A DNA stretch of 23,646 nucleotides, from positions 1-23,646 of the IMG/VR virus record IMGVR_UViG_3300032049_000003. The stretch is one strand, 5' to 3'. Below, one piece after another: positions 295 to 22,067 of the stretch. Each line of letters opens with the position of its first letter. Position 1 is the stretch's first letter. Origin of the DNA: a virus. The notes under the pieces are model-generated. The model worked only from the letters and a program-made list of their open reading frames with translations. It was not told the origin of the DNA and made no database searches. Both the position numbers and the translations under genes were made by a program.

Positions 295-1572
295 TTATAA
301 AAGGGAGGGGATCTTGGATAGGGTTTTCTGATTCGGGGTGAGGAACTGCGAATATGACTCATCGGGTTGATGGTGTTGGTCTGTTCTCGTTCTAGACGGT
401 GTCAGTACTGCGGCCAGACACTGGCGGACGATTTCCCGCGACTCAGAGACCGATGTGTGAGGTTTTTTTGGGTTCGTTGTGTCGGTGGGGGGGGATGTGG
501 TCCGCTGTTTTCGCGGGGGACATTGGTCGGCCCAACTGGGAACAGGGATCGTTTGGAGCCAGACCCACTCCTCGGGAGGGGTGTGGCGTACAGCCAGTGT
601 CTGGAGGTACGCTCCATAGGAGCGCGGCCTAGGGTCGTCACGGATGGCGTTGCCAAAGGCATCGAGGATGGCAGAGGCCCACGCTTTTCCTGAGGATCGT
701 GCTATCACCAGTCGTGATAGGAGTACACGGTCCCGACTGCGCCTAGGCCAGCCTCCAGGCCAGTGACTGGCCAGTCGGCGATACTCGGCAACGAGGTGTC
801 CAGTGCCGTTCGCACGGGATGACTCTGTTGGGTGCGTGTGTCCGTTTTTTCCAGCCTTTATATACGTCGTCGACGACGACGTAGATATATATATCTTCAT
901 ATGGGTATTTATATAGGGATGAGATACCGATGGGGTCGGTATGGGGTCGGTATGGGGTCCCGATGGGGTCGGTATGGGGTCGGTATGGGGTCCCGATGGG
1001 GTCACTATGGGGTCGGTATGGGGTCCGGACGGGGTGGGTAGGGGCTTCGTATGTGGTATGAGTTCACCGGGTGTAGGAGTGGAGTGTGACGGAGCTGGTA
1101 TCGTGGCTCGGTCACAGTCCGGAAAGGGTTCCGAGGATGTATCAGGAATTAGGCAACTGGGGGCCACCCGACTGGGGGGATGTATCGAGGTATCCACGAA
1201 CTCGACCATGCCGTCCGATGTTTGCAGGGTGACATATCGTATGCGATAGTCACCATGATCATCGGGATAGTGAGCATTCCTGCTTCTGCTGCACCGCCGC
1301 CACTTGGTTATCTGTAAAACCGTCAGCCCATCATAGCACCATTTGGTGATTAGGCCCGCCTTCTCGATCTCGGCCAGTGCCTGTTCCAGGTCGGTGTCCG
1401 ACACAGTGCGGATAGGGAACAGGCGCGAGTTGAGAAGCCGGATTCGTCCGTCCATTCGGCCTGCATCATCGGCTATTAGGATCATCCTGTGGTAGACACA
1501 CTCAGCGAACCAGGAGAGTCGGTTAACCCGTTCCGAGTCTATGAAGCCGTCCCTGACAATCCGGTTGGGCAT
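295..1572 (-). CDS. Phage replication initiator-like protein (lambda O-type architecture)
   Basis: The 425-aa product begins MPNRIVRDGFIDSERVNRLS, the opening typical of phage replication proteins with an N-terminal winged-helix domain. Residues 1-105 fit that domain, including a 'DDAGRMDGR' segment and 'IEKAGLI'. Residues 110-250 are low-complexity Pro/Ser/Thr, with three tandem 11-residue repeats (PSGPHTDPI plus two residues) at about 181-213. Residues 255-345 form a second folded-looking region, perhaps for contact with a helicase or its loader. The start is supported by GGGGAG (minus strand, 1580-1585) 7 bases upstream. The gene runs opposite to the structural genes. Its DNA carries a repeat array that may be the replication origin. 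The winged-helix reading is family knowledge. The initiator role is inferred from this and from the origin-like repeats. It could instead be a DnaD/DnaT-like primosome protein. Confidence 0.65.
   Translation of the reverse strand: MPNRIVRDGFIDSERVNRLSWFAECVYHRMILIADDAGRMDGRIRLLNSRLFPIRTVSDTDLEQALAEIEKAGLITKWCYDGLTVLQITKWRRCSRSRNAHYPDDHGDYRIRYVTLQTSDGMVEFVDTSIHPPSRVAPSCLIPDTSSEPFPDCDRATIPAPSHSTPTPGELIPHTKPLPTPSGPHTDPIVTPSGPHTDPIPTPSGPHTDPIPTPSVSHPYINTHMKIYISTSSSTTYIKAGKNGHTHPTESSRANGTGHLVAEYRRLASHWPGGWPRRSRDRVLLSRLVIARSSGKAWASAILDAFGNAIRDDPRPRSYGAYLQTLAVRHTPPEEWVWLQTIPVPSWADQCPPRKQRTTSPPTDTTNPKKPHTSVSESREIVRQCLAAVLTPSRTRTDQHHQPDESYSQFLTPNQKTLSKIPSLL
855..927. other. AT-rich segment with palindrome, possible DNA unwinding element
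   Basis: Between the GGGG repeat array and the 3' part of the initiator gene, the sequence becomes rich in A/T steps (TATATA, TAGATATATATATC, TATTTATATAG). It is interrupted by a perfect 14-bp palindrome, CGTCGTCGACGACG, at 865-878. In lambda and related phages an AT-rich stretch next to initiator iterons melts first. The composition and palindrome are visible; unwinding is inferred. It encodes Tyr/Ile/Ser/Thr-rich residues of the linker, so coding constraint there is probably low. Confidence 0.4.
928..1034. repeat. Three 33-bp tandem repeats made of 11-bp units; candidate iterons
   Basis: Units start at 928, 961 and 994. The first two are identical over 33 bp and the third differs only at 1004-1005 (ac for gg). 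Each unit contains three copies of a 10-12 bp element built around ATGGGGTC, mostly GGTATGGGGTC. GGGG runs begin at 932, 943, 954, 965, 976, 987, 998, 1009, 1020 and 1031, always exactly 11 bases apart, about one helical turn. The array lies inside the replication-initiator gene and encodes its 11-residue repeat. It resembles initiator iterons. A coding-only repeat or a recent slippage expansion is the alternative. Confidence 0.7.
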
Positions 1573-3535: not shown

Positions 3536-4312
3536 ATGGCGCAAAGGGCACTGATAGCCGGAACCGAACGGATTTTGGGATGTCTGCCGCGCACCATACC
3601 ACCGGGGACTGTTTATCCGGTTTTCGGTGAGCGGCCGACAGCGAGACTCATCCCGCGCGCGGAGTGGATTCCTTGTGATTGGTCCCATTTTATAACTCGG
3701 GTACTCGACCAGGATGGTACGGGTGCCTGTAACGCGTTCGCTAGTGTACAGGCAATACACATGTTGCGTGCGGCGGCAGGCCTCCCTTATGTCGAGCTAT
3801 CGGCCGGAAACCTGTACGGCCGAATCAACGGTGGACGCGATGCTGGTTCCACACTAGTTGATGCGATTCGCGAACTAGAACGGCGTGGAGTCTGTCGTGC
3901 AGCACTCGTCGGCCAGCTAGAATGGCAGCCGTGGCGCTGGCCTAAGAATTGGCAGGAGGATGCCATCCGCTTTAGGGTTCTAGAAGCGTGGGACTGCCCT
4001 ACGTTCGACCATATCGCTAGTGCGGTTCAGCTAGGGTTCGGTGTCAACATCGGGATCCTGATAGGAACGAATTTTGAACCGGGAACCGATGGGTGGGTTC
4101 CAGACCGGAAAGGTCGTGCCGGCGGTCACGCTATGTGTGCCGTAGGTCTGGAACGAAAGGGGGATGTATGGGGAATAAAAGTCGTGAATAGCTGGGGCGA
4201 GAAGTGGGGCAGAAAAGGCTACGCTATCATACCAGAGTCGTATTTCCGCGATGTGGTGTGGACCGACGGATGGGCAGTCCGCGTCGTCGTTGATCCGGAG
4301 GGACCCGAATGA
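3536..4312 (+). CDS. Papain-like (C1 family) cysteine peptidase
   Basis: All elements of a papain-type active site are present in order: Q59 (oxyanion hole) and C65 in LDQDGTGACNAFASVQA, H198 in AGGHAMCAVG, and N218 in VVNSWGEKWGRKGYAII. The last segment is the hallmark 'NSWG..WG..GY' motif. The 258-aa length equals one mature catalytic domain plus a short N-terminal extension; there is no obvious signal peptide or long inhibitory propeptide. It cleaves peptide bonds, but the substrate is unknown. It sits just before an XhlA-like membrane protein and overlaps it by 4 bases, so a role in host lysis or envelope penetration is plausible. Virion maturation is less likely because a separate capsid protease is encoded at 7615-8901. 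Confidence 0.85.
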   Translation: MAQRALIAGTERILGCLPRTIPPGTVYPVFGERPTARLIPRAEWIPCDWSHFITRVLDQDGTGACNAFASVQAIHMLRAAAGLPYVELSAGNLYGRINGGRDAGSTLVDAIRELERRGVCRAALVGQLEWQPWRWPKNWQEDAIRFRVLEAWDCPTFDHIASAVQLGFGVNIGILIGTNFEPGTDGWVPDRKGRAGGHAMCAVGLERKGDVWGIKVVNSWGEKWGRKGYAIIPESYFRDVVWTDGWAVRVVVDPEGPE

Positions 4313-17028: not shown

Positions 17029-19956
17029 ATGAGCCTGCGAATCGTCTATAGATACTCAGGACATCCCATCCCGTTATGGGATGGCCGAGGGATACTACGT
17101 GAACATGTTGACAGGTTACTAGCGCTTCCGCCGCTTAAAAAACTATACGAAAAACGGGAATGGATACCTGGCTGGGTGGGTGGTAAAGGGGATGCAGGCC
17201 CTCCCGGGTTTGGGCAACCAGTCGGCGCTTTTGAATGGGATCCGATGCCGGAGATCAAACCGGGCGTGCTCTATTGGGCTACAGGGGCAACACGACCAGC
17301 TATACTAGTGATCACTTTGCCCGGAGCACTCCTCCTCGATGCCCTCAGGACTCCCTGCCCGCTCTTCGAATTCGGTTTCCTCGATCAGAACTTGCATGAA
17401 GTCGATTACTTCTATATACCACTGTTCCCCGTATCATGGATTCGCGTTGGTTGGGTAGAGTCACCGTATCCGTTAGGTCCGACGACAACCTCCACAACGA
17501 CAACACGTGAATATGACGAGCCCCTACCCAAGAGCGGACGTCCAGAGATAATCATCCCACACGGTCTGTATTTGACGGCCCTGGTGTCCTGGACCTATTT
17601 CCTACGCGAAATCTATGTCGATATTACGGATACGTCCTCATGGGCCGCCATCTGTCGCGACATATTTCAGGCCCTGATAGAGCACGGCCGTGTTGGTGCT
17701 TATTTGAACTTCCTACAAATCGAACGGTGGTATCAACTGTTTATTTACCGTGAGGACGACCACGAGGTTCCGATACCTGGATGGGACACGTTGCCGGAGT
17801 ACCTCGAAACCACCACGACGACGACCACGACAACCACCACATTCGAGTGCATCCCCAAAGGCTCGACCACGACCACGACGACGACGACGAGCACAACGAC
17901 CACAACGACCACAACGGGTGATGCGGACTATGAGTGTCTTACTGTACCAAACTCTACCATTTGGTATGGCTCTCGCATACCGGCCGATTGTGCTATCGAT
18001 GCAGTGGCTGCACATTTGTGTGCCATTGCCCACGTGAGTGATCTAGTGTATTTTCGCAAAGTGGCACGCCCAGCAGTGATGACAGGACAGCATCTAGCTG
18101 GGCGGATTCGTGAGGGTACAGGAGTTCAGCGCCTAACTGTGTTAGCTCCTGAATGCGTAGAAAACAAACTGCCAAGTCGGCGCTATTTCAGTGACTGGAA
18201 ACTGCCAATTGCGAGAGGGGATTTGCAGTTAACGATCACGGAATCGACGTGCTCAAAGGACTGCCTCTATTCGCGCCTGTTCAAAATCCATAAAGCACTA
18301 TGGCGCAGACTCGGTCGTGGTGGCAAAACCGCCAGTTTCGTCCTCACGGGAACACCGTTCCTTCCGGAGCAAACCGATTGGATATCGATAGACCTCGCAG
18401 AAGGTACCGCGACAATCCGCAGTGCCGGGGCTGTTCACTGGCCTCGGTCTTGGGCGTGGGACTGCCCGACAACGACAACGACCACAGCCCCCGGCCTATT
18501 CGGGCCACGTTATGAACCAAAAACTCGACCACGACGTGAGCCGCATCCCTGTACACGATGCCACTGCTACTGGACGTGCCAAGGGACTCAGGATGGATAC
18601 TATTGGGTGCGCATCGATGAACTAGACGAGTGTACAGAACCATGTCAATGTCCTGAACCGTTTGAGGTCGAGTGCGACCAGGAGTATGTCGGTGCACAGT
18701 GGACCGTGTTCTGCGAAGAGAAGCCTGACGATCACTGTTGGGGCCACTATGCGCGGTGGAAGTGGGTACAGGACGGCGAAACCTATTCCGAGGGACATTG
18801 GGAACTAGAGGAACCGTGCCCTAATGGGTGTGACTCGTGTTATCCGGAATTTTGCTGTGAGGATGAAACAATCACACTCGATGATGGGACAACCACTACA
18901 CAGGAGTACGAGTGTACACATACCTACACTGAGTGCTTTGCTTCTGGAACACGTGAATGTCCGGATGGCGGTGCCTTCCCTGAAGGGCGTGATTGCCGGA
19001 CCACAACGAGCACAACAACGTCGACGACGACAACGACTCCTGAGTCCTGCGACGGTGAGTGTACGTGGATTTGGACGGACCAGGGCTACGTTAGAACTAA
19101 ACGAGATACGCCCGAACATGAGGACTGTCCTGAGGGCTGTACCTGCTGTTACCCCCCTGACTGTTCAGACGTAGAATATGGAGATATAGTGCGTGGAACA
19201 TGTGCCAAAAGCGCATCCGAGTGTCCGGAAGTACCTGACGAATGTACACCTATAGATCCGCTCTGCGGTCCCTGGCCTCCAGGACACCCGTGTTGTGAGG
19301 ACCCTCATGCACCGAAGCCTCCTAAACCGAGGGATTGCCGCTGTGGTCGAGAGGGTCGATGTGTATGGTATCTCGCCCCGCCCGATCCTGGCAGCCTGAC
19401 GCTATTAGAGTTCGATTGCTGTCCTGAATGCCCATGTGAACTGCCGCAGGATATACAACTGTGTGGTACAGAGATCACCTATTGTCGTCCCGAACCACCA
19501 CGACCCCCGCGGCCAGCAGAAACACGCTGTCGTGGAGGCTGTATCTACGTGTGGTGTGAATGGCCAGACGGCTGGACGGGCTGGGTTTTGATACATGGTG
19601 GCTGTGTTCGTGGTACTGCATTAGAGTGTGAGTGGAAAACCTGGAAGGGCTCTGTACGCCGCTCACCGTGCCTAGAATGTGCGTGCGGTGCTCCTGCTAG
19701 TGGATCCTATCCGTGCGTAGGTCGTTGTGTGTGGGAATGCCAAAATGGAAGGTGGGTCCAAACTATGTCTTGCAAGGATGCGGGCGACGGGGCAGGGTGT
19801 ACATGCCCTGAGGTCACTCTGACTCAACAGTGTTCTAATGGGGATAGGATTAGTGGTGCCTGCATCGGCTATAATACCTATCCGGTCTGTGGTACACTAT
19901 CTATCCAGGACTGTGTGTGTGTCTGTCCGCACTATGACTGTACGAGCGGCCCATGA
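17029..19956 (+). CDS. Tail appendage protein with Cys/Trp modules and Thr-rich linkers
   Basis: The 975-aa protein has an N-terminal virion-attachment-like region (1-250), which includes a short GKGDAGPPGFGQP stretch. A second folded region spans about 297-478. The Cys-rich half (508-975) holds at least six related modules, at about 508-543, 570-609, 674-710, 770-805, 834-886 and 896-927. The module pattern is C-x-G-x-C-x-W, a hydrophobic strand with a second W, then C..C-x-C and often P, for example CDGECTWIWTDQGYVRT then CPEGCTCCYP. Mostly-Thr linkers occur at 151-159, 261-271, 280-296, 481-486 and 657-670. This is likely a receptor-binding or adhesion appendage; disulfides are probable once outside the cell. 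It overlaps the next gene by 4 bases (ATGA). Confidence 0.6.
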   Translation: MSLRIVYRYSGHPIPLWDGRGILREHVDRLLALPPLKKLYEKREWIPGWVGGKGDAGPPGFGQPVGAFEWDPMPEIKPGVLYWATGATRPAILVITLPGALLLDALRTPCPLFEFGFLDQNLHEVDYFYIPLFPVSWIRVGWVESPYPLGPTTTSTTTTREYDEPLPKSGRPEIIIPHGLYLTALVSWTYFLREIYVDITDTSSWAAICRDIFQALIEHGRVGAYLNFLQIERWYQLFIYREDDHEVPIPGWDTLPEYLETTTTTTTTTTTFECIPKGSTTTTTTTTSTTTTTTTTGDADYECLTVPNSTIWYGSRIPADCAIDAVAAHLCAIAHVSDLVYFRKVARPAVMTGQHLAGRIREGTGVQRLTVLAPECVENKLPSRRYFSDWKLPIARGDLQLTITESTCSKDCLYSRLFKIHKALWRRLGRGGKTASFVLTGTPFLPEQTDWISIDLAEGTATIRSAGAVHWPRSWAWDCPTTTTTTAPGLFGPRYEPKTRPRREPHPCTRCHCYWTCQGTQDGYYWVRIDELDECTEPCQCPEPFEVECDQEYVGAQWTVFCEEKPDDHCWGHYARWKWVQDGETYSEGHWELEEPCPNGCDSCYPEFCCEDETITLDDGTTTTQEYECTHTYTECFASGTRECPDGGAFPEGRDCRTTTSTTTSTTTTTPESCDGECTWIWTDQGYVRTKRDTPEHEDCPEGCTCCYPPDCSDVEYGDIVRGTCAKSASECPEVPDECTPIDPLCGPWPPGHPCCEDPHAPKPPKPRDCRCGREGRCVWYLAPPDPGSLTLLEFDCCPECPCELPQDIQLCGTEITYCRPEPPRPPRPAETRCRGGCIYVWCEWPDGWTGWVLIHGGCVRGTALECEWKTWKGSVRRSPCLECACGAPASGSYPCVGRCVWECQNGRWVQTMSCKDAGDGAGCTCPEVTLTQQCSNGDRISGACIGYNTYPVCGTLSIQDCVCVCPHYDCTSGP
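17809..17916 (+). repeat. ACN triplet tracts encoding Thr linkers
   Basis: Two runs of Thr codons (residues 261-271 and 280-296 of the appendage protein) flank a short FECIPKGS segment. The codons mix ACG, ACA and ACC in no fixed order, so the selection appears to be for threonine rather than for a DNA repeat. Shorter runs of the same type occur near 17479-17505, 18469-18486 and 18997-19038. Confidence 0.8.
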
Positions 19957-22067
19957 TTCCCTGTGCGCTTAGGTGCCGTATGGCGTACTGGCATGGGCAG
20001 TGGGTCCCTCACGGGGACAGGGACTGCCCAGCGTTGTGTGAGTGCAGTCCTCCGCGACTGCCCGCGACGCTCGCTTTGAGAAACGGGGACACATTTATGT
20101 CCTCGTGTACACCATCGCGCACGACAACGACAACGACGAGTTATGATCTTCCGCCACCTCCGCCTCCGACTACGACAACGACAGGCGACGCGCCATACGG
20201 GTATTGCATTTACGAGTTCGACCTTGGACAGCAGGAGTACCGATTGGCCCAGCAAAACTGTGTAGAGGGCCATAAATGCCCAGGACCACCATGTGACTGG
20301 CACGGCCTCTCAATTCGGCGCGACTGTATTCCCGAAAACACACCAGAGGAGGAATGTCCCTGCGATGGACGGTTTTGTGAGTATTACGCGAGCTATGGAC
20401 GCGCAGGATACTATCTCGTAGCCAAGCGGTGTCGCGGTCAGGACTGTCTTTGCGGTGAACCGATTCTCAGGTATCCACAGGGTGAGTACAATTTAGCACG
20501 TTACTGGCGGTGGACACGGTTTCACTATCCGTGGGAAGGGGATCCATATGCAACCCATTTGGATTCACGCCCCCCTGCACTTGTGTTCACCGAGTGCAGG
20601 GATGACATAGACGGAGACTGGCAGCCCCCGCGCTGCTTTGGGTGGGCACTATTTTATAAATCCCTGCCACTGCCTAGCGAGGTACAAAACGCGCGAGAAT
20701 ATCACCTAGCCCAGAATGCACGTTGCCCTGAGGGCTGTGAACCATATGAGCATCCCTGTGAGAACGATTGGTACATTTGGAACGGTCCAGACGAGGTGTG
20801 GATGCCGTGTGTCGAGGCCGATGGACCACTCGCGAACCGATATCCTGGCTGGAACCCCACGATTGATTGCCAGTGCCGCGGCCGCTGCTACTGGGTTTCC
20901 TACGACGGAAAAATTTGGTCGAGAAAGGAGCCACAGAATCGTGCACCCTGCTATTGCCGTTTTCGTAGACGGTGGACACCTGAACTCTGTTACTGCCCGT
21001 ACCCAGACCACCCACCAAAGGGCATAGGTGATGAAACGTATACGTCCTGTAAGGGCGTAGACATCAACGAGGCAAGGATCGGTCTGTGGTATGGCGCCAA
21101 TATATTCCCATTCGGAGGACCTAGCCCTGAGCAGGCGCGTGTGCGCTGCATACCATGGCCCGATGGGGGTGAGTACTGCCGTTGTGAATTTGCGGACATA
21201 TATACGGACGAACAGGGGGCGCATTTCGTCCCAACCGACCAACTCTATCCAAAATATGAAGCGGGGCGCCTGGTGTGCGAGTCGGTCTTTAGGCTCTTTT
21301 CCGTCCACCATTGCCGGGATCTACCACCACCGCCACCACCGCCTCCGCCACCTCCACCACCTCCGCCGCCGGAGCCACCGTGGCCCACAACAACATCCAC
21401 GACAACGAGCACGACACCGGATGGCCAACCCCAATGTTCTGATGCCCTGTGCACGTGGTTTTGGGCCGGTTTTCGCGGCTATTACTGGTTCCTAGCACTG
21501 GATAGGTGCAGCGCCTACGGAAATGACTGTACATGCCCATATCCTACATTTATCCCGGAGGGAGGACTACCGGCCTTTGTCCACTTCCAGTGTCAAGGAG
21601 GCACGACGACCACTACAACGACGAGCACTACGACGACGACTACGACGACTACAACGACGACCACTACAACGACGACCCCAGAGACTGAACCAACAACTAC
21701 GACATCCACGACCACGACAACTACGACCAGCACAACAACGACCACGACCAGCACAACGACTAGCACGACGACAACCACGACGAGTACTACAACGACGTCG
21801 ACGACTACAACCAGCACGACGACCAGCACAACAACGACAACCAGCACAACCACCAGCACAACGACGACAACGGAGGACTCCTATTATGGGTGTTCGTCCT
21901 GCTATTGCTGGTGGTATACCTACGAGGATAGCGGTGGCAATCTGTACTGGGAGTTGATACAATGGTGCTCGGGTGGACAGGAGTGTGGCGCTTGTACAGG
22001 TTGTCAACCGCCGCCACGCAATCCGCAGTACTACGGTGAGTTGCTATTGACTCTGTGTTACATGTGA
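19953..22067 (+). CDS. Second Cys/Trp-module appendage protein with poly-Pro and mucin-like tract
   Basis: The 704-aa protein starts directly inside a Cys/Trp module (CALRCRMAYWHGQWVPHGDRDC), continuing the module family of the upstream gene. More modules lie at about 85-115, 137-170, 308-335, 495-530 and 646-683, for example CRGRCYWVSYDGKIW and CSDALCTWFWAG. Linkers are extreme: PPPPPP near 67-72, 16 consecutive prolines at 458-473, and about 90 residues of almost pure Thr/Ser at 551-640. No enzymatic domain is seen. It is probably a tail fibre or tip component exposed to the environment, with rigid (Pro) and possibly glycosylated (Thr/Ser) stalks. Its ATG overlaps the previous stop, so both are made together, perhaps as a complex. 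Confidence 0.6.
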   Translation: MIPCALRCRMAYWHGQWVPHGDRDCPALCECSPPRLPATLALRNGDTFMSSCTPSRTTTTTTSYDLPPPPPPTTTTTGDAPYGYCIYEFDLGQQEYRLAQQNCVEGHKCPGPPCDWHGLSIRRDCIPENTPEEECPCDGRFCEYYASYGRAGYYLVAKRCRGQDCLCGEPILRYPQGEYNLARYWRWTRFHYPWEGDPYATHLDSRPPALVFTECRDDIDGDWQPPRCFGWALFYKSLPLPSEVQNAREYHLAQNARCPEGCEPYEHPCENDWYIWNGPDEVWMPCVEADGPLANRYPGWNPTIDCQCRGRCYWVSYDGKIWSRKEPQNRAPCYCRFRRRWTPELCYCPYPDHPPKGIGDETYTSCKGVDINEARIGLWYGANIFPFGGPSPEQARVRCIPWPDGGEYCRCEFADIYTDEQGAHFVPTDQLYPKYEAGRLVCESVFRLFSVHHCRDLPPPPPPPPPPPPPPPPEPPWPTTTSTTTSTTPDGQPQCSDALCTWFWAGFRGYYWFLALDRCSAYGNDCTCPYPTFIPEGGLPAFVHFQCQGGTTTTTTTSTTTTTTTTTTTTTTTTTPETEPTTTTSTTTTTTTSTTTTTTSTTTSTTTTTTSTTTTSTTTTSTTTSTTTTTSTTTSTTTTTEDSYYGCSSCYCWWYTYEDSGGNLYWELIQWCSGGQECGACTGCQPPPRNPQYYGELLLTLCYM
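21324..21371 (+). repeat. Run of 16 proline codons
   Basis: Sixteen uninterrupted Pro codons (CCA, CCG and CCT mixed) encode a polyproline stalk ahead of a short Thr linker. Polyproline runs stall ribosomes and normally need elongation factor P. The mixed codons argue for selection on the protein. Confidence 0.9.
21603..21872 (+). repeat. 270-bp mucin-like Thr/Ser tract
   Basis: Ninety codons, nearly all Thr with scattered Ser, are interrupted once by PETEP at residues 575-579. Codons mix ACG, ACA, ACC and ACT, and Ser uses AGC, AGT, TCC and TCG. Triplet slippage would change stalk length without breaking the frame. The composition resembles O-glycosylated mucin domains. A glycosyltransferase gene begins about 210 bases downstream. 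Confidence 0.9.

Follow-up and report, generated by a model that had tools for sequence, protein, structure and literature searches.

Replication origins located inside initiator genes are well established, with lambda, SPP1 oriL, TP901-1, Tuc2009 and several plasmids as examples. In lambda ori, the iterons occur in the middle of gene O and are followed by an A+T-rich tract (PMC7466680). The organizer proteins of the lactococcal phages TP901-1 (ORF13) and Tuc2009 (Rep2009) bind direct repeats within their own genes, and these repeats are the phage origin (PMC8965321). SPP1 oriL comprises direct repeats and an AT-rich unwinding element within gene 38 and is bound by gp38 (PMC6316719), while RepA_N-type plasmids, including pSK41, pSK1 and pAD1, carry their origin iterons within the rep gene (PMC3155836). 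Among mycobacteriophages, Wetzel et al. suspected that the origin for cluster A RepA lies within repA or immediately upstream of it and found no repeats in the regions that they examined (PMC7157519); cluster A RepA may or may not belong to the family described here.

The stretch of DNA analyzed here (hereafter, the window) is a virus record of 23,646 bases (IMGVR_UViG_3300032049_000003). In the linker-coding middle of its 425-aa replication-initiator gene is an array of 11-bp units that is very probably the iteron part of a phage replication origin (Table 1). The array, its phase, its position in the initiator gene, its recurrence in diverged relatives and its conservation as DNA can all be read from the nucleotides themselves. 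An earlier note had proposed an origin within the initiator gene, and this is the best-supported reading; GGGG is not the essential feature, because relatives use other cores.

Like lambda ori, the window has tandem direct repeats inside the initiator gene and an adjacent AT-rich tract (856-926), and the lambda iterons occupy a similar relative place, at approximately codons 116-145 of O. The two differ in that the four iterons of lambda are 18 bp long and spaced at 20-24 bp, a feature of the O family that is absent from the window with its ten units at 11 bp, and the family profile gives no significant match to lambda O (E 0.16). SPP1, compared by description, resembles the window in having both repeats and an AT-rich element inside the gene for gp38. 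RepA_N initiators are similar in having iterons inside the initiator gene, with a fold likeness (Z 7.2-7.7) that is below the decisive level. TP901-1 rep differs from the window family, showing neither a lag-11 signal nor a significant profile match. The family is set apart from these systems by the 11-bp period, by the frequent presence of a short-period tract in place of the AT-rich element, and by its breadth.

Table 1. Features of the window at and around the iteron array
Feature	Position	Strand	Remarks
Replication-initiator gene P0001, 425 aa	295..1572	-	ORF; phrog_1408 match
N-terminal winged-helix domain, residues 1-135	1168..1572	-	AlphaFold2 model
Iteron array, ten 11-bp units	930..1039	-	Sense strand GACCCCATNNN; encodes the 11-aa repeat PTPSGPHTDPI
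Degenerate eleventh unit, in phase	919..925	-	ATGAGAT, sense ATCTCAT; between the array and the AT-rich stretch
AT-rich stretch, candidate unwinding element	856..926		Directly 3' of the iterons in gene sense
Inverted repeat, near-perfect	859..887		14-nt arms, 1-nt loop, 93% complementary; within the AT-rich stretch
C-terminal part of initiator	295..855	-	Counterpart in relatives matches primosomal protein I-type proteins

GGGG begins at positions 932, 943, 954, 965, 976, 987, 998, 1009, 1020 and 1031, with 9/9 intervals of exactly 11.0 bp; an eleventh GGGG, at 1041, is off phase by one base. The longest chain of equally spaced G-runs was thus 10 (period 11), compared to a maximum of 3 when the first 3 kb was shuffled 200 times (first-order Markov) with any period from 6 to 40 allowed, and the ten phased runs described in the earlier note are thereby confirmed. 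TRF reported the array at 927-1044 with a period of 11 (10.5 copies) and, in a second call, with a period of 33 (3.6 copies, 90% matches). The core is GACCCCAT, and the 33-bp superperiod arises because the sense-strand spacers cycle ACC-ACC-CGG, a pattern that growth by in-frame 33-bp duplications would produce. Since three 11-bp units amount to 33 bp, the repeat is in frame and is translated as a peptide repeat. A single array of ten 11-bp units is a better description than the three 33-bp repeats noted earlier. The slot that corresponds to the degenerate eleventh unit holds an intact ATCCCAT in relative L003. An exact search of viral contigs for two of the window's units returned no matches.

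The AT content of positions 858-926 is 67%, and the two lowest-GC places in the window are the 60-mers at 856 (GC 0.317) and 7507 (GC 0.30). The AT-rich DNA that had been described as following the array is indeed beside it, but it follows only in gene sense and precedes the array in + coordinates.

Residues 10-94 of the window protein match phrog_1408, "replication initiation protein" (E 2.1e-9), and phrog_2149 and phrog_16167 are matched as well. The AlphaFold2 model of residues 1-135 is a confident winged helix (pLDDT 89, pTM 0.83), presumed to be the iteron-binding domain; profile match and model together uphold the placement of the array inside a replication-initiator-like gene. In a second look at PDB folds, 4pql, 4pt7 and 5kbj, which we take to be staphylococcal plasmid RepA initiators, ranked 1, 2 and 4, with Z scores of 7.2-7.7 that do not stand out from those of unrelated winged helices. 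No Pfam or NCBIfam model matched the window protein or the relatives tried, a PDB sequence search with the initiator family gave no usable match, and family profile searches returned no match for the C-terminal part of the window protein. Elsewhere in the window, an ORF at 3536-4312 resembles a papain-type cysteine peptidase by eye (GACNAFA, GGHAMCAVG, VNSWG), and two long ORFs at 17029-22067, downstream of structural genes, contain threonine-codon runs (TTTTSTTTT) and many cysteines.

Relatives of the initiator were found in four viral contigs and then at 72 viral loci and 9 genome loci, among the latter records of Thermogutta, Luteimonas and Akkermansia; the most similar cellular record is a Thermogutta MAG. 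The family ranges over viral contigs, genome contigs of Planctomycetota, Verrucomicrobiota and Pseudomonadota, and phages of Actinomycetota. The nearest relatives (L002, L003, L005, L014 and L082; 43-51% identity within the N-terminal part that was matched) have (A/G)(C/T)CCCAT-type units, spaced 11.0 bp apart, in this linker, numbering five, four, three, four and four, respectively. Distant relatives have arrays at the same place and period with other cores, namely GCANATGC and TGWCNGWCA, and mycobacteriophage and Propionibacterium phage proteins show the core TCGCGA/CTCGCGAG. Across the loci compared, array cores are lineage-specific. In core classes A-C, 78/90 spacings (counting those up to 45 bp) are exactly 11. 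In the GCANATGC class (L021, L032, L033, L041, L043 and L045), the last spacing of the array is often 10 bp. In gene sense, the iterons are usually followed by a tract with a period of 6 or 8 bp or by an AT-rich tract. That arrays occupy the same place in many distant viruses suggests that the site itself has been preserved by evolution.

The "RepA-like replication initiator" proteins of mycobacteriophages Che8, Raymond7, BigNuz, Brujita and Fishburne, belong by protein similarity to the same family, the search having led from the Luteimonas locus L083 to them and then onward from BigNuz. Several of their linkers contain approximately 11-bp units around TCGCGA or CTCNNGAG, followed by an 8-bp GGGGAACA tract; this second element distinguishes them from the other relatives, in which it is a 6-bp or AT-rich tract. 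In the actinobacteriophage relatives L091, L092, L097, L099-L103, L106 and L108, an 8-bp (GGGGAACA)n tract replaces the hexamer tract. The 2006 review of phage replication modules by Weigel and Seitz may already have predicted some of these origins.

The periodicity was measured in 58 divergent representatives by a lag-11 test, in which the best 33-nt segment of each linker was scored and an identity of at least 64% was considered strong. A strong segment was present in the linker of 40% of the representatives, compared to 0/320 other ORFs of the same loci. In a codon-preserving shuffle, synonymous codons were permuted within each linker, leaving both protein and codon usage intact; such shuffles were beaten at p<=0.01 by 31% of representatives and 0% of controls. 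At the control lags of 13, 14, 16, 17 and 19, at most ~5% of representatives gave a signal, and the linker held the strongest 11-bp repeat of the contig in 8/14 whole contigs. The earlier note had named relatives that lack repeats here and carry iterons elsewhere as evidence against the origin. This worry is answered in part, as approximately 40% of the 58 representatives keep the array, but about half show no significant lag-11 signal. As a positive control, the proven iterons of lambda O were recovered at lags 20, 23 and 24 (p 0.005-0.02); TP901-1 rep, used as an 11-bp positive control, gave no lag-11 signal. GC skew minima in 14 contigs of relatives did not lie clearly close to the linker, at a mean circular distance of 0.21 compared to 0.25 expected.

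The short-period tracts bear on the level at which selection acts. In different relatives, the hexamer tract ACGGAG yields GDGDGD or ETETET, and AATCCG yields NPNP or SESE. Because the reading frame of the DNA units varies, so do the encoded residues, and it is therefore the DNA that is kept: as judged from these tracts, conservation is at the DNA level and not at the peptide level.

A scan of viral contigs for TGWCNGWCA occurring three times at 11 bp was performed on DNA only, blind to protein. It yielded 50 loci, a few of them on contigs already in the profile. At 37 loci the array fell within an ORF that matched the initiator profile, between codons 105 and 258; 19 of these 37 matches were weak (E 2.8e-5 to 4.3e-3). 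When class-C ORFs were compared to PHROGs, 7 of the 10 scanned fell in replication-initiation or DnaD-like loader families. The other patterns were unspecific, with profile matches for 2/48 viral-contig hits of the class-A pattern (CCCAT four times at 11 bp) and 2/36 hits of AGCANATGC occurring three times. Many class-A hits were plain 11-bp minisatellites, and many class-B hits were one recurrent repeat with no long ORF around it; several CCCAT and AGCANATGC hits were inside other replication proteins, DUF1376 proteins included. A repeat of AGCAAATGC at 11 bp followed by AAATGGGGTTNTATAA was observed outside long ORFs at L159, L161, L162, L164-L167, L169-L174 and other loci.

When core class was mapped onto a tree of the N-terminal domain, 9 changes were needed, compared to 20.7 with shuffled labels, and class A, to which the window belongs, formed one clade (support 99). 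This agreement fits recognition of the core by the N-terminal domain, although adjacency within one gene would yield part of it by descent alone. Initiators whose N-terminal domains are apparently of different kinds (phrog_1408, DUF1376, DnaD-like loaders and one ribbon-helix-helix look-alike) also have the cores CCCAT, AGCANATGC and TGWCNGWCA in their linkers. An 11-bp iteron with its short-period tract might thus be a transferable origin cassette that passes from one initiator family to another, or the cores might be read by some common factor distinct from the N-terminal domain. We consider this unlikely and give it a minor place, because cores of 5 to 8 bp may recur by chance in a very large collection. 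The N-terminus of L194, L196 and L205, which carry the same TGTCAGTCA-type 11-bp array, appears by eye to be ribbon-helix-helix-like rather than winged helix. In the DnaD-like initiators of L220, L226 and L240, and by eye probably also in L199, an HNH endonuclease domain is inserted between the N-terminal domain and the iteron linker.

An array of this kind could instead be a neutral or slippage-driven minisatellite, kept in frame by its 33-bp steps and merely lengthening a flexible, Pro-rich linker. The superperiod does suggest recent in-frame duplication, 11-bp CCCAT minisatellites are found in many other viral contigs, and linkers tolerate repeats. Drift of this sort is nevertheless very improbable, given that diverged relatives have arrays with different cores at this same place and that such arrays are absent from the 320 other ORFs; moreover, units of L003, L014 and L082 vary in their spacers, and some units of L005, L014 and L082 are inverted, with the 11-bp phase kept throughout. 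Selection on the protein, in which PTPSGPHTDPI would be a functional linker and the DNA period its by-product, could draw on a repeat of exactly 11 in-frame codons. We rejected it as extremely unlikely, since codon-preserving shuffles destroy the 11-bp DNA period of the window (p=0.005), relatives have arrays whose unit numbers are not divisible by three, and the residues encoded at the corresponding place (QMHSTCAAD, DGHMTVICQT, ESVASPRET) are unrelated, with the DNA phase roughly kept.

Repeats of approximately 11 bp form arrays in some plasmid centromeres, as in ParR/parC of R1, and such arrays are possible binding sites for winged-helix and related proteins. These points would favor a parC/parS-like partition centromere, or an operator through which the initiator represses its own gene. 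Either is very unlikely as the main function in view of the mid-gene location of the array beside an AT-rich or short-period tract, the replication or helicase-loading families in which most class-C pattern-first hits fall, and the failure to recognize a partition gene among the scanned subset of window proteins; the array may have a second role alongside origin function. Finally, the ten G-runs of the window, with four Gs each and 7-nt spacers, match the classical pattern of a G-quadruplex element on the + strand. There is next to no chance that this accounts for the array, and we rejected it: in relatives, arrays at this place and of this period have cores that lack G-runs (GCANATGC, TGACCGTCA, CTCGCGAG), and L005 has units with only three C.

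If the array is the iteron part of an origin, the N-terminal winged-helix domain would bind the 11-bp units at roughly one unit for each turn of the helix, and initiator molecules on successive turns, possibly lined up on one face as the earlier note suggested, would build a nucleoprotein complex. This complex is proposed to strain and open the adjacent tract, which is AT-rich in the window and has a short period of 6 or 8 bp in relatives, and the C-terminal part would then recruit or help load the replicative helicase. The helicase-loading step is proposed because the neighboring genes and C-terminal matches of relatives point there. In LESphi2, genes for rep, a DnaC-like loader and a DnaB-like helicase occur in a row, an annotated helicase loader adjoins rep in Che8, and the C-terminal parts of relatives match primosomal protein I. 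The contig is a fragment, and so no helicase or loader gene was seen next to the window initiator.

The arrangement provides a rule that uses sequence only, in which an 11-bp array in the linker of an initiator, followed by a 6- or 8-bp-period or AT-rich tract, marks a predicted origin. The rule covers a large family of phage initiators for which there is no Pfam or NCBIfam model, and it makes mycobacteriophage origins, such as those of Che8 and Raymond7, directly testable. Odd low-complexity linkers in these proteins (GDGDGD, ETETET, NPNPNP) are likely by-products of the underlying DNA sites.
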